IMG/VR virus record: IMGVR_UViG_3300036889_000031
Span: 1-27,503 of that record
DNA from: a virus
Length of the DNA: 27,503 nt
Direction: 5' to 3' (one strand)
Below the pieces are notes generated by a model, which was given only the letters and a program-made list of their open reading frames with translations, was not told the origin of the DNA and ran no database searches. The position numbers and the translations under genes are program-made. Below are positions 1,266-9,529 of the stretch, piece after piece (the stretch's first letter is position 1; each line of letters starts with the position of its first letter).

Positions 1266-1340
1266 CCGAGTTCCGTACCGGCAACGGGTGACCAACCCGA
1301 CGTTCGCAGGAGGAGAAATCAGGAATGACTCCCGCAGAAG

Positions 1341-1502
1341 TTAGTTCAACGCCGTCAGGTCTACAAGTTGAAGAAGCTCTGCTTGTTCCTCGGTGGTTAA
1401 CGAGTCGAAGAAGTGTGAGTAAGCCTGCTTTTCAAGATCTGGAGAAAGATAGTGGGCTTCTTTCTTGAAAAAGTCTTGGCATTTCCTTTGTAGAGTGGTC
1501 AT
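1341..1502 (-). CDS. small early protein, unknown function (53 aa)
   Basis: A short leftward reading frame of 53 residues, starting MTTLQRKCQDFFKKEAHY and ending LVDLTALN. It has a strong ribosome binding site (AAGGAGAGG) just before the ATG. Its leader closely resembles the leader of the next gene upstream (1539-1862), which supports it as the last gene of the leftward operon. The composition is mixed charged and helical, with no domain I recognise. A plus-strand frame covers part of the same DNA (1325-1468) but has less gene-like composition. Function unknown. Confidence 0.6.
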   Translation of the reverse strand: MTTLQRKCQDFFKKEAHYLSPDLEKQAYSHFFDSLTTEEQAELLQLVDLTALN

Positions 1503-1538
1503 GACCTCTCCTTGGTTGGCCAGAATTACGGCGGAAGG

Positions 1539-1862
1539 CTACCTCTTTCCACAAAGAAATGGTGGAAGGGGAGTGTCGTCGAACTTGCGAGTTTTACGAG
1601 CGACTTCGTTGGGAATGGGAGTCATACACTTGCGGATGGTCTTCAGATGATCCAATGCCTGTTCCAACATGTTGATGTCCATATCGATGTCGAGAACATT
1701 GGTAGGACGATCCTGATATTCATCAATCATGAGATGACTGTGGCCTAAAAGAACTTCTGCTTCCTGGTTTCCTTCTGGAGTTCTGATGAAGAGACGAAGG
1801 AACTCATCATGTTCGCTTCCCAAACCAAAACCGTGTATCACATACTGTTTCAAGTTTTTCAT
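1539..1862 (-). CDS. hypothetical early protein (107 aa)
   Basis: Leftward gene with a GAGAGGA ribosome binding site before ATG at 1862. The protein begins MKNLKQYVIHGFGLGSEH and contains an acidic stretch, IDEYQDRPTNVLDIDMDINM, around residues 47-66, followed by a probable helix (LEQALDHLKTIRK). No signal peptide or membrane segment is visible. It lies between two other small genes of the same strand, separated by 36 and 50 bases, so the set is probably one transcript. The leader carries a perfect hairpin (CCAGGA, 7-base loop, TCCTGG). I do not recognise a family. The location beside the integrase and the HTH gene suggests an early or lysogeny-stage accessory role, but this is inference. Confidence 0.65.
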   Translation of the reverse strand: MKNLKQYVIHGFGLGSEHDEFLRLFIRTPEGNQEAEVLLGHSHLMIDEYQDRPTNVLDIDMDINMLEQALDHLKTIRKCMTPIPNEVARKTRKFDDTPLPPFLCGKR

Positions 1863-1912
1863 GATTCCTCTCTTGGTTGTGCCAGGATTACGGCTCCTGG
1901 CGAGCCGGTGGA

Positions 1913-2245
1913 TTAGTTAGACGGATGTTCCATCTTCACCACTTGGAAGTAGGGCTTGCCGGTCAAGATACGTGTAGCTTCTTGATATCCATCCACGAAT
2001 GCCTTGGCGGTTACTTGGAGTTTTGAATCGGTGTAATCTGTCTGGGAGTCAATGACTACTCTGTACACCTTGTCATCATCGCTCTCAACACGAATGGACG
2101 TTGCGTCTACACGATTCTTTTCCTTCAATAACAAATGGATCAGGAGTCCCTCTGTTAATTGGGCAAGACTGCGGTTGTCCCACTTCGAAACAAGGTAACC
2201 AAGTGGGGAGTTTTCCGAATCAACGGTGACGAATACTGTTTTCAT
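1913..2245 (-). CDS. hypothetical early protein (110 aa)
   Basis: Leftward gene. I chose the ATG at 2245 (MKTVFVTVDSENSPLGYL) because AGAGGAATC lies right before it; an ATG at 2278 in the same frame has no such site. The sequence reads as alternating strands and helices: an N-terminal beta strand (TVFVTVD), a helix around LAQLTEGLLIHLLLKEKN, then strands (TSIRVESDDDKVYRVVIDS) and a last helix (AKAFVDGYQEATRILTG). That is consistent with a small soluble alpha/beta fold. No catalytic motif is recognisable. It sits between the HTH gene and the 107-residue gene in the leftward block. Confidence 0.65.
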   Translation of the reverse strand: MKTVFVTVDSENSPLGYLVSKWDNRSLAQLTEGLLIHLLLKEKNRVDATSIRVESDDDKVYRVVIDSQTDYTDSKLQVTAKAFVDGYQEATRILTGKPYFQVVKMEHPSN

Positions 2246-2323
2246 TTTGATTCCTCTTCTGTGGTTTGGTGGCCACATGACTCTCTACCGATGGGTTTCT
2301 CAAAACGGTTAGTGATTCCGAAA

Positions 2324-2539
2324 CTATTTTCTCTTCGGCTGTTTGACAGTTGTGTGTGCATCGACCCAATCGCCCGTCAGCTGCGGATCAAGCCTGAGAT
2401 TGCCACCGGGCAGATGGATCGCCGGGAGTCCACGCTTGACCAGTTTGTAGACGCTGAACTTCGATATGCCCATGATCTCGGCAAACTCCACCACGGAGAT
2501 TCCCGACTTCCGGCTACGGATTAAATCTGCAAGTGTCAC
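2324..2539 (-). CDS. small HTH DNA-binding protein, excisionase-like
   Basis: A 71-residue protein with a MerR/excisionase-type winged helix-turn-helix: EFAEIMGISKFSVYKLVKRG around residues 18-37, then the wing-like LPAIHLPGGNLRLDPQLTGDWVD. Proteins of this fold and size serve as phage excisionases or small regulators, binding beside att sites or early promoters. It is the promoter-proximal gene of the leftward block, facing the divergent control region 2540-2893. The start appears to be GTG at 2539; an in-frame stop (TAG) lies four codons upstream, so it cannot be much longer. The ribosome binding site is poor. Excisionase is the likeliest role, a repressor-like regulator the alternative. 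Confidence 0.75.
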   Translation of the reverse strand: MTLADLIRSRKSGISVVEFAEIMGISKFSVYKLVKRGLPAIHLPGGNLRLDPQLTGDWVDAHTTVKQPKRK

Positions 2540-5894: not shown

Positions 5895-6056
5895 GTGAAA
5901 ACAGTGAAAACAGTTCTAGAGCGTCTCAATGAGATTTCGACTGGTGGGAGTTTGAAGGACCCCAAGTTGTGGGAGGAAATGAAAGCAAGGTACTTCGCGA
6001 AGAAGGCTGCACGTATTGCCAGAGAAAAGGCCGCCACCGATGCCAACAGCAAGTGA
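5895..6056 (+). CDS. small basic protein before helicase (53 aa)
   Basis: A short frame starting at GTG 5895 with ATAGGAGAC before it. The protein reads MKTVKTVLERLNEIS through ARIAREKAATDANSK: two helices, the second strongly basic (KARYFAKKAARIAREK). It overlaps the start of the helicase gene by 17 bases, implying coupling. It may be a helicase loader or other replication accessory by position, since loaders often sit next to phage DnaB-like helicases, but it is shorter than known loaders. No family recognised. Confidence 0.6.
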   Translation: MKTVKTVLERLNEISTGGSLKDPKLWEEMKARYFAKKAARIAREKAATDANSK

Positions 6057-7554
6057 TTACGACTGCAAGTCACCAATTGTGGTTGCCCTCGTTTTCATGC
6101 GGAGCAATCCACATGATTTGATCGTTCAGCACAGGCACCAGTTGCGTTGGGCCTGTTTTGAGTGCAAGGAGGACGGGGCATCTGCCCTGTTCTCCATCCT
6201 GAAGTATGACAAGGAGTTCGGCAAGTGCCCCGACTCCACGACAACCTTGAAGACGTGGTTGTCTGCCAATGTGAAGAATGACCAGAGAGCAAATCAGGAG
6301 CAGGTTCAGAAGTTTCAGGACATCGACCTTATTGACGAATACGAAGTTGACGGAGAATTGCCCGCTGTTGAAGTCGTCATCGATTCGTTTCTGGCCGACG
6401 CTCGTGTAGAAGCCGATAAGACCACCTACCACGATGCGCAAATGATTCTGACCGGCGCTTCCATTCCCCAAGAAATGAAGAAGCTGGCCGAGGAACTTGC
6501 TCCACCCGAACTTGCCATTCGCTACATTCGAGACCGCTGGAACAAGACTCCAGTTGCTCGAAGGATCACTGATGGCGACTGGGTTGAGAACGCTGAGGTC
6601 ATTCGTCAGGAGCTTGATACTCAATTGCTTGAGCAAACGGAAACTCGCATCAAAACCTTGTACACGGAAGTCGATGAGTGCTTGGTGCTCGGCAAGAAGG
6701 ACCTCCGCTGGATTGGGATTCTTGGATACACTCACCACGGCAAGAGCACCTTCCTGCATTCACTTCTCTACAACATGGCTCGCTCAGGGCACAACGTGTT
6801 GTTGGTTCCGCGTGAAACCACTGTCTCCAAAACCTGGATCAAGCTGACTTGGTTGCATTCAAAGTGGTTTCCGGACATGCCTCTTTGCTCCTACGACACT
6901 TGGTCGTTGAAGCCGCATCTTGTTTCTGACGAGGATCGGCAGACCAAGGATTTCCTGCTTGACGATCTGAAGAGCCGTCGTCACATGGCCGGCAGCATCG
7001 ATGTTAAAAAGCTGACCACGTGGGAAGAAATCGAAGAGTATGTCAAGGACAACCAATCGAAGAAGAACTACAGCGTCGTTGCCGTGGATTACATGGAGCA
7101 TTTGGAGGTCACGACCGGAAGAGGCTTGAATAAGCTCGATGCTCAGAACGATATGTTCCGCCGCGCTCAAATGTTCAGCCAAGATTTCAACAATGGCGAA
7201 GGAATGTGCGTCATTACTCCACTCCAGACCAACAAGAAGGGGATGGAAACCATCAACAAGAAGGATGGCGAACTTTGGGGTGTCTACGAGCCCATTGATC
7301 TCGGAGCCGTTGATTGGTTCACGCAGGTTGCCCACGACATGGATGTTGTGATCGGAGTATGGCAGAACGATCCTACCACCATGACGATTTCATGCCCCAA
7401 AGCCAGAGGCAAGCACTTCCCTCCGTTCACGGTCAAACTTGATGATGCCAAGTCCCGGTATGTGTACGAGTCGAAGAAGAAGTACGATACGGACCCAACA
7501 GTGATCATGCCGAGGTCTAATGAATTTCTTGCCGACTTGTTGGGCGATCTGTAG
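6040..7554 (+). CDS. DnaB-like replicative helicase (RecA-fold ATPase)
   Basis: Hexameric-type helicase expected to unwind phage DNA at the fork. The Walker A motif is GYTHHGKSTF around residues 229-238, and the Walker B region is YSVVAVDYMEHL around 345-356. It is followed by ITPLQTNKKG, in the place of the DnaB 'Q/N' sensor loop, and a C-terminal RecA-fold strand run. The first ~200 residues are helical, as in the DnaB N-terminal domain, but not closely recognisable. The ATG at 6040 has AAAAGG nine bases upstream; a TTG at 6016 would add eight residues and is less likely. The HH in the P-loop is unusual compared with the common GxPGxGKT. It is followed, with ten bases between, by the origin-bearing initiator gene. 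Confidence 0.8.
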   Translation: MPTASDYDCKSPIVVALVFMRSNPHDLIVQHRHQLRWACFECKEDGASALFSILKYDKEFGKCPDSTTTLKTWLSANVKNDQRANQEQVQKFQDIDLIDEYEVDGELPAVEVVIDSFLADARVEADKTTYHDAQMILTGASIPQEMKKLAEELAPPELAIRYIRDRWNKTPVARRITDGDWVENAEVIRQELDTQLLEQTETRIKTLYTEVDECLVLGKKDLRWIGILGYTHHGKSTFLHSLLYNMARSGHNVLLVPRETTVSKTWIKLTWLHSKWFPDMPLCSYDTWSLKPHLVSDEDRQTKDFLLDDLKSRRHMAGSIDVKKLTTWEEIEEYVKDNQSKKNYSVVAVDYMEHLEVTTGRGLNKLDAQNDMFRRAQMFSQDFNNGEGMCVITPLQTNKKGMETINKKDGELWGVYEPIDLGAVDWFTQVAHDMDVVIGVWQNDPTTMTISCPKARGKHFPPFTVKLDDAKSRYVYESKKKYDTDPTVIMPRSNEFLADLLGDL

Positions 7555-7564
7555 GAGGAATGTA

Positions 7565-8554
7565 ATGTCGAGCACGCAACAGTACGAACCCAAGTATCAA
7601 GCATGGAGAGAAAAGGATTTCTCCTCGGATATTGCTGTCATGCGCATGACGCCACATCAACGGCTCATGTATCGTTCCCTCTGTCAACGAGCATTCTACT
7701 GCTCAACCCGTCCGGACTTACCAACCGATGATCAGGAATTGTGCGATCTTGCCGATGCGGATGACGTTGAGCATTGGCTTACGAACAAGAAAGCGGTAAT
7801 GCGGAAGTTCATTCTGGACGGCGATGTTTGGTACAGCAGGCGTCTTCGCTCGGATTGGATTGGCATCACCGAAGTCTATGAGCAAACATCCAACGCAGGT
7901 AAGTCTAGCGCCAACGGTCGCCAACGGTCCACCAACGGTCGTTGGTCTGGTGACCAACGGGTGACCAACGGTGACCAACGGCCTTCCAACGACCCACCAA
8001 CAAAAGTAAATGTAAATGGAAAGATAAAAGAAGAAAGTAAAGAGAGCTTGCTTGCTTCTTCTCTTTCCAATTCACCGGGAGAAGACAGTCCTCGTCCGAC
8101 TCTTGTCCGGAAGAAGACTCCCGGAAACAGTTTCCTTCCGAAGTGGGATGAGCAATCGAATTCTCCCGATTCTAAGACATCGTCGAAAACATCTCCTCCG
8201 GTTAAGTTCGATCCGCTCAATTTCAAGGAACCTATTGGCGACGATCTGGTCAAGGAAGTTCGGCGCGTCATGTTCTATTGCTTCAAGGAAATGGAAGACG
8301 GTTACTGGCGGAAGAACATCCTGACCCGTGAGGATTTGATTCGTGCCTATCCTGCGATGAAGAAGCAGGTTCCGAATGACTTCACTGTTTCCGGTCAATG
8401 GTATCGTGAAATCCGTGTTGTCAATCCCGATTGTCCTATCTGTCAAGGCGTCGGAGACACGTTTGTAGATCATCCTTCGTACACTTCCGGGATGGCCTTG
8501 CTTGGAATTGAATGTGATTGCGTGACGTATCAGGAGCCGGTATGGAAAAGGTGA
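7565..8554 (+). CDS. YdaU/DUF1376-like replication protein, candidate initiator
   Basis: A 329-residue protein starting at ATG 7565 after TAGGAGG. The N-terminal ~100 residues (MRMTPHQRLMYRSLCQRAFY, then LPTDDQELCDLADADDVEHW, then DGDVWYSRRLRSDW) match the YdaU/DUF1376 phage family found in replication modules. Residues ~116-146 are a low-complexity linker rich in NG, QR and DQR; this is where the DNA forms phased iterons. A Ser/Lys-rich stretch follows, then a C-terminal domain (~215-329) with CPIC and CDC cysteine pairs, a possible zinc site. The layout (N-terminal DNA-binding domain, origin inside the middle of the gene, C-terminal partner domain, helicase next door) resembles lambda O. 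Initiator role is inferred. Confidence 0.7.
   Translation: MSSTQQYEPKYQAWREKDFSSDIAVMRMTPHQRLMYRSLCQRAFYCSTRPDLPTDDQELCDLADADDVEHWLTNKKAVMRKFILDGDVWYSRRLRSDWIGITEVYEQTSNAGKSSANGRQRSTNGRWSGDQRVTNGDQRPSNDPPTKVNVNGKIKEESKESLLASSLSNSPGEDSPRPTLVRKKTPGNSFLPKWDEQSNSPDSKTSSKTSPPVKFDPLNFKEPIGDDLVKEVRRVMFYCFKEMEDGYWRKNILTREDLIRAYPAMKKQVPNDFTVSGQWYREIRVVNPDCPICQGVGDTFVDHPSYTSGMALLGIECDCVTYQEPVWKR
7890..8068. other. candidate replication origin: phased iterons plus A-rich tract
   Basis: Six exact copies of CCAACGG begin at 7911, 7921, 7932, 7954, 7965 and 7975. Degenerate copies begin at 7890, 7986 and 7997, and an inverted GTTGG (7941-7945) fills the 22-base gap. Spacings are 10-11 bp or twice that, so the copies lie on one face of the helix. 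Immediately after come ~45 bases (8002-8046) of A, G and T with no C, a good melting tract. A long imperfect inverted repeat then pairs GGAAAGA/AAGAAG (8018-8033) with CTTCTT/TCTTTCC (8055-8068). This is the order seen in lambda-type origins inside the initiator gene. Confidence 0.7.
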
Positions 8555-8772
8555 AGAAGGTCTTTCGCGCAGGTTCACTTGATGTGCCTTACATAGTTGA
8601 GGAGGAACACCCTATGACAATCGATAAACGCCCAATCTCGGAAATGTCGCTTTGCGAACTTGAAGAGGCCTGCTGTGATGACACAACAACTGAAGCAGAG
8701 CGTGACCGAATCCTTGACGAGATGCTGAGACAAGTGAATGAGGAAGTACATGAGTCCGAGCAGCCCAGGTAG
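8542..8772 (+). CDS. small acidic protein (76 or 52 aa), unknown function
   Basis: Two starts are possible: ATG 8542 (MEKVKKVFRAGSLDVPYIVE) with CAGGAG before it, overlapping the initiator gene by 13 bases, and ATG 8614 (MTIDKRPISEMSLCELEEAC) with a strong GAGGAGG. The second gives 52 residues. The shared part is acidic and helical (CELEEACCDDTTTEAERDRI, then LDEMLRQVNEEVHESEQ) with adjacent cysteines. It overlaps the HNH gene by 23 bases in another frame. No family recognised. Confidence 0.55.
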   Translation: MEKVKKVFRAGSLDVPYIVEEEHPMTIDKRPISEMSLCELEEACCDDTTTEAERDRILDEMLRQVNEEVHESEQPR

Positions 8773-9529
8773 TCTATGTAAGGATTGCCAGCGCCGCGCA
8801 TTACCCGGTACGCGGTATTGCCAAGATCACCAGACTGACAACCAAGCAAGAGAGAAACGTCATCTCTACGATGCCTTTGGAAGAGACGAAGAACTTCGTC
8901 CGCTGTATCGTTGCAAGCGATGGGAAACAACACGCCAAAGAGTATTGCGCAGAGACATTCTCTGTCGGATGTGTGGTCATAAGGCAAGCACTGAGGTTGA
9001 TCACGTTCTTCGTGCAAGACTTGTATTGGACAACTTTGGATTAGATGAGTTCTACAACATCGATAGACTACAGGGTTTGTGTCATGACTGTCACTCTATG
9101 AAGACTGCTCACGAGTCAGGTTGGGCAGGAAGCAAAGGCACACGGTTAGATAACCTGAGCAATCGTAGCAACACGACTGTTGTGTGTGGGCAGGCATGTA
9201 GTGGTAAGAGCACATATGTAGAGCAGCACAGACAACAAGACGATGTCTGTTGGGACTACGACGAAGTGATGGCACGCATCACAGGGTTGCCTTTGCATCA
9301 GTCACTACAAGGAGCGATTGGGAGTGTGTTGGCGGATCGTGACAACTTCATCCTAGGTACAGCGACGTGTGAGTATCGCGTTTGGATCATATGCGCGAAC
9401 CCCCAAGCACACATCGTCAAGCTGCTGAGCGAGGCTGGAGCTTCGGTGGTGACCATGCAGACGCCTGATGATGAGTGTCAGCGACGACTACGAGAACGAC
9501 GCAAGCAAGAGGCACTAAATAACCCCTAG
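8750..9529 (+). CDS. HNH endonuclease fused to P-loop kinase-like domain
   Basis: A 259-residue two-domain protein. The N-terminal part has a small zinc-binding knuckle (C10, C13, C24, H27), then an HNH nuclease core: C72-x2-C75, EVDHVLRAR (D84, H85), N103 in FYNIDRLQGLC, and C111-x2-C114. The C-terminal part has a Walker A motif GQACSGKST (147-155), followed by CWDYDEVMARITG, the pattern of small AAA/polynucleotide-kinase-like proteins of phages, and an Arg-rich end (RRLRERRKQE). The two are usually separate genes: HNH proteins sit beside terminase genes and assist cos cleavage. The start at 8750 is chosen for GAGGAAG; it could be 8738. It lies directly before the small terminase. Confidence 0.8.
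   Translation: MSPSSPGSLCKDCQRRALPGTRYCQDHQTDNQAREKRHLYDAFGRDEELRPLYRCKRWETTRQRVLRRDILCRMCGHKASTEVDHVLRARLVLDNFGLDEFYNIDRLQGLCHDCHSMKTAHESGWAGSKGTRLDNLSNRSNTTVVCGQACSGKSTYVEQHRQQDDVCWDYDEVMARITGLPLHQSLQGAIGSVLADRDNFILGTATCEYRVWIICANPQAHIVKLLSEAGASVVTMQTPDDECQRRLRERRKQEALNNP

Follow-up and report, generated by a model that had tools for sequence, protein, structure and literature searches.

A probable replication origin made of helically phased iterons within the linker of a DUF1376-related, initiator-like phage gene

The best-known phage initiators that carry the origin within their own gene are the lambda-type O proteins, which have iterons of 20-24 bp. Phages and prophages of many bacteria encode proteins with DUF1376, a domain of unknown function. 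One such protein is YdaU of the E. coli Rac prophage, which is followed by a DnaC-like loader, YdaV; the Rac origin, oriJ, may lie in ydaU. In lambdoid phages, the origin is located inside the initiator gene, with the iterons and an AT-rich tract between the N- and C-terminal domains (PMC7466680). In pAD1, pSK41 and similar plasmids, the origin lies in the rep gene (PMC3155836). The N-terminal domain of the RepA_N initiators binds the iterons, a set of semi-palindromic repeats that run towards each other up to a poly-A tract (PMC7145576).

The window analyzed here is a stretch of 27,503 nucleotides, IMG/VR virus record IMGVR_UViG_3300036889_000031, and its features are listed in Table 1. Positions 7890-8069 are very likely a theta-type phage origin situated in the linker of its own initiator gene, P0001, a reading that includes binding by the N-terminal domain, DNA melting and helicase recruitment. 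As in oriLambda and the origins of the Stx phages, iterons and an AT-rich tract lie in the middle of the initiator gene, and a helicase-related gene adjoins. The position of the tract within the gene, directly beside the iterons, is also a lambda-type trait. Unlike in lambda, the helicase-like gene is upstream and no P-like gene was identified. The N-terminal domain, unlike that of lambda O, has no match to Phage_rep_O (PF04492), and the pitch is 10-11 bp instead of 20-24 bp. A positive control of 25 lambda-O-type genes gave repeat peaks at 19-20, 23-24, 44 and 47 bp but no peak at 11 bp, so known origin repeats are detected by the method and the two kinds can be told apart. The proposed origin works like oriLambda and is not a lambda-O member, so that the label "lambda-O-like", given to it in an earlier note, is appropriate for the iterons and AT-rich tract in an initiator gene, but not for the protein family or the repeat spacing. 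The linker of Rac YdaU contains repeated TGTTCAAACA followed by an A-rich tract, which is the arrangement of the window with a different repeat sequence.

Table 1. Features of the proposed origin region and adjoining reading frames
Feature	Coordinates	Strand	Basis or remark
Upstream ORF with Walker A-like motif, weakly DnaB-like, proposed replicative helicase	6016..7554	+	PHROG
Initiator-like gene P0001, 329 aa, divergent DUF1376 relative	7565..8554	+	
N-terminal domain of P0001, residues ~10-127, predicted winged helix	7592..7945	+	structure model
Iteron array	7890..8003	+	nine direct CCAAC-type copies (6 exact, 3 degenerate)
Dyad CAACGGTCGTTG	7933..7944	.	a direct copy paired with the inverted one
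C-free A-rich tract, proposed unwinding element	8002..8046	+	directly after the array
Imperfect inverted repeat, 53 nt	8017..8069	.	stems 8017-8024/8062-8069 and 8028-8033/8055-8060
C-terminal region of P0001, residues ~226-329	8240..8551	+	low-confidence helices and CPIC...CDC cysteines

The exact copies of CCAACGG start at 7911, 7921, 7932, 7954, 7965 and 7975, in steps of 10, 11, 22, 11 and 10 bp. The degenerate copies are CCAACGC at 7890, CCAACGA at 7986 and CCAACAA at 7997, and one inverted copy, CGTTGG, occupies 7940-7945 in the gap of the array. A single lattice with a period of about 10.67 bp, or one turn of the helix, accommodates all nine direct CCAAC copies. The earlier note had described the six copies with their spacing, the three degenerate copies in the same phase and the inverted copy, and each of these was confirmed. 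No other 7-mer cluster of this kind (at least four copies within 120 bp) occurs elsewhere in the record. The linker peptide is itself repetitive (NGRQRSTNGR), and the DNA repeats might be a by-product of this low-complexity sequence. The nine copies, however, have codon phases 1, 1, 2, 1, 2, 1, 2, 1 and 0. All three phases are used and the steps of 10-11 bp are not multiples of 3; the repeat is therefore one of DNA and not of peptide. Moreover, 3000 synonymous recodings of the same peptide gave at most three CCAACGG, against the six observed, and the excess of 11-bp spacings in the family, described below, is likewise measured against synonymous recoding. The by-product explanation was rejected on the codon phases and on the recoding tests of window and family, and has almost no probability left; it is the peptide that appears to be shaped by the DNA repeats, as had been supposed.

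The C-free run that follows the array is, with 45 nt, the longest of the record (the runner-up has 32), and overlaps 7999-8043, the most A-rich and also most AT-rich 45 bp of the record. The inverted repeat has a folding z of -3.2, and only one of 200 shuffles folded equally well. Both elements had been noted before and are borne out. The cumulative GC skew of the record, a check proposed at the outset, gave no clear origin signal. Phased direct repeats can in general be operators or centromeres, and the array could be a regulatory or partition site bound by P0001 or another protein. Such a role is very improbable, as the array lies within a gene whose neighbor is helicase-like, rather than at a promoter, and borders on the record's most A-rich tract. 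The neighbors of DUF1376 genes are often helicase loaders (P-like in 17/90, DnaC-like in 16/90), and the method that finds the array recovers the known 20-24-bp origin repeats of O genes. Finally, the segment might be a decayed origin in a defective prophage, the record being of 27.5 kb and perhaps incomplete. The helicase-like and initiator frames are open and the lattice is regular, which leaves this explanation scarcely any weight.

The sole Pfam match of P0001 is DUF1376 (PF07120; residues 18-95, 23.0 bits, E 1e-4), under the Pfam cut-off of 30.1. In a profile-profile comparison by hhalign covering 102 columns, the N-terminal domain matched 24 DUF1376 members with 97.2% and E 3.5e-11; this part also matches "primosomal protein" models of PHROG. 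VIA-align rows were weak for P0001 and were left out of membership decisions. Judged by these comparisons, P0001 is a divergent relative of DUF1376 only: the previous assignment to the YdaU/DUF1376 family stands at the level of profiles, but not as full membership. No direct relatives of P0001 were found among phages and viral contigs, and P0002 had one partial match there (26% of the query, 24.5% identity).

The C-terminal region of P0001 is proposed to be the helicase-recruiting part. It has no significant match to any family among the Pfam and PHROG profiles, including known helicase-recruiting families, and a scan with this part alone found nothing. In some other DUF1376 members, the C-terminal domain resembles that of DnaT, primosomal protein 1 (Z 13.5, 53% identity; profile E 1.9e-6), whereas the Pfam scan found no DnaT C-terminal domain in P0001. 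The C-terminus of Rac YdaU resembles those of the lambda-O type and not that of the window protein. The upstream ORF matches PHROG 19 (E 1.1e-5) and PHROG 239 (E 3.5e-6). The array had been placed in the linker of a gene after that of the helicase; the linker position is correct, but the upstream ORF is just weakly DnaB-like. On the other side of P0001, ORF 8738-9529 joins an HNH endonuclease part to a P-loop part, and in PHROG matches the terminase small subunit (E 2.8e-43) and also HNH endonuclease.

The structure of P0001 was predicted from 52 sequences. Most N-terminal blocks have pLDDT >85 and the linker is of low confidence. The predicted N-terminal elements are helices 30-46, 56-62 and 68-79, strands 83-85 and 88-90, and a long helix 92-127. 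The structural matches of this domain are mostly winged helices and are weak (a RepA_N Rep-DNA complex, ORC2; Z ~5), and Foldseek alone found nothing significant (best E 0.42). The top matches are the RepA_N initiators of pSK41, pTZ2162 and pAD1 and the PLE RepA. The Z of 5.1 for RepA_N (rmsd 5.3-5.5 over 88 residues) is too low for a claim of kinship. RepA_N proteins, moreover, have no sequence match to the window protein, and their iterons differ in being semi-palindromic.

The linker repeats were examined in 101 non-redundant DUF1376 genes, including that of the window, from genomes, viral contigs and phages, with 279 flanking ORFs as controls. By synonymous shuffling (p up to 0.01), repeats in excess of the coding requirement are present in 37/101 DUF1376 genes and 8/279 flanking ORFs (Fisher 7e-17). 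In the 100 genes other than that of the window, identical 7-mers at a lag of 11 number 91 against 6.5 expected, 14 times the synonymous recoding, and occur in 40 genes; at a lag of 22 there are 38 against 4.0. The flanking genes have 11 at lag 11 against 4.6 expected. After grouping into N-terminal clusters the lag-11 excess is 0.273 vs 0.021, seen in just 6 of the 14 clusters. A phased block is detectable in 57/101 genes, just past the N-terminal domain as in the window; it starts at a median of nt 353 (IQR 333-362), and the 60 nt that follow it are AT-richer than the gene mean. P0001 belongs to this phased-repeat class by its pitch, its start at nt 346, its CAACG core and its strand offset of 7+11n. 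The alignment of homologous genes, which the earlier note had proposed, gave a block nearly fixed in place with a repeat sequence that varies with the N-terminal clade. Phased repeats were expected in the linkers of relatives and are present in these 57 genes, but in about 44% of the sampled relatives an 11-bp block is not detectable. Many DUF1376 genes (L092, L105, L106, L109, L114 and others) have tandem tracts of 6 bp (AGATAC/ATACAG) or 5 bp (AGAAG) after the 11-bp repeats, which are possibly unwinding elements.

The repeats of the N-terminal clades are of the CAACG, GCAAT/GCAAA, GCGAA and CTACG types. The CAACG core is found in 26 DUF1376 genes, the window and 25 others, and in none of the 279 controls. 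In the 25 others, opposed copies are most commonly offset by 18, 7, 29 and 40 bp, which is 7+11n, and also by -15 and -26. The inverted copy of the window is offset by 7, 18, -15 and -26 from direct copies, in the register of the family, although P0001 is only about 20% identical to the CAACG-type relatives. Five of these (L116, L108, L099, L096 and L082) have the 12-mer CAACGGTCGTTG letter for letter.

The CAACG lattice was also searched for in viral contigs with no protein information, as three CAACG at an 11-bp pitch, the only pitch scanned. At least 80 loci were found. A DUF1376 gene is present at 29 of the 80 listed, and the match is inside that gene in all 29: 22 have it in the linker, and the remaining 7 have it solely at nt 171, on the opposite strand. 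The latter kind, three CGTTG at an 11-bp pitch within the N-terminal-domain coding sequence, is seen in L358, L366, L374, L400 and others. Among the other 51 listed loci, 30 are in ORFs assigned, directly or through an ORF of the same cluster, to replication-initiation, DnaD-like, O-like or primosomal models of PHROG, and initiator-like genes thus hold 59 of the 80 listed matches. The lattice therefore marks initiator genes generally. There is about an even chance that CAACG sites spaced by exactly one turn of the helix, and opposed by copies at 7+11n, are a common origin signal of several phage initiator families without recognizable sequence kinship (DUF1376, DnaD-like, O-like), so that origins and initiator genes could be found by the DNA pattern alone. 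At one locus, L382:3111-4607 (minus strand), an HNH endonuclease domain is seemingly inserted in the linker of the initiator gene, beside a CAACG array.

The presence of the lattice in non-DUF1376 initiators strengthens the origin reading, but the reader of the sites could differ from the DUF1376 protein. The array might thus belong to an origin and yet be read by a host factor or another phage protein, with P0001 acting through its other domains. This alternative, favored by the same lattice in several PHROG families, is improbable, though less so than the other alternatives weighed here. The repeat type of DUF1376 genes tracks the N-terminal tree, on which it requires 10 changes, whereas shuffles require 21 or more. 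Repeats are shared by pairs alike in the N-terminus and unlike in the C-terminus to the same extent as by pairs similar at both ends (0.18 vs 0.019 for unrelated pairs), a comparison softened by physical linkage and by the non-independence of pairs. Since the repeats adjoin the N-terminal coding sequence, such co-inheritance is not proof of recognition. The fold predicted for the N-terminal domain, a DNA-binding winged helix, also points to P0001 as the reader.

In the sister phages found by terminase, a recognizable P0001 relative is present only in L031 and L019. These nearest kin have 21-bp repeats of different sequence (L031) or no such repeats (L019). The terminase relative L014 has an unrelated helix-turn-helix initiator (1332-2468, minus strand) with its own five 21-bp linker repeats (SNQDCT peptide); initiator and origin have therefore, we infer, been exchanged as a module. 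L031:1652-2590 and L038:1908-2882 have a common C-terminal domain (44% identity) and unrelated N-terminal domains, and their homology begins at an NEQSVSQS segment within an inverted-repeat-like stretch, which suggests a recombination joint just after the origin. Some repeats lie apart from such genes. About seven copies of an 11-bp repeat with a TGGTCCTGA core, followed by an AT-rich stretch, are at L008:3320-3410 (a sister phage with 75% terminase identity), outside any ORF of at least 100 aa; this resembles an origin that is not housed in a long gene. L031:4880-4990 and L028:4830-4940 have GCAAATG at steps of about 12 bp, followed by an A-rich tract and by a segment of CAGACAGACAGTC, with no initiator ORF around; the DUF1376 gene of L031 is 2.3 kb upstream. 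These repeats may represent a second, orphan origin or else a relic.

An origin inside the initiator gene, as first suggested in the earlier note, is the best reading of the sequence, to judge by the phased blocks, their fixed position and their varying repeats. We infer that the iterons are bound, the tract melted and the helicase loaded at an active origin, in the following manner. The winged-helix N-terminal domain of P0001 would bind CCAACGG sites one helical turn apart, which would align the bound molecules along the same side of the DNA and place a single opposed pair at the dyad. Their assembly would strain and melt the adjacent A-rich tract, and the C-terminal part would recruit the replicative helicase, which the upstream gene probably encodes. 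Family members would then combine three elements: a swappable N-terminal binder together with its own sites, a tract rich in A, and a C-terminal adapter for the helicase.

YdaU-like proteins had been described as usually without function, but "DNA replication protein O" and "primosomal protein" already stand as annotations of some relatives. In the literature searched, no title or abstract indicated a study of DUF1376 function. Relative to this literature, three points appear to be new: an 11-bp lattice whose strand register is fixed, the location of this lattice in the gene, and its occurrence outside DUF1376 as well. On the sequence evidence, the DUF1376 family very probably starts phage DNA replication. 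It gains a specific and testable job, that of an origin-binding initiator, with a predicted binding site and, for each gene, a likely origin position. The 11-bp lattice implies an initiator assembly unlike that of the lambda-type O proteins with their 20-24-bp iterons, and a pattern search on this lattice finds initiator genes directly.
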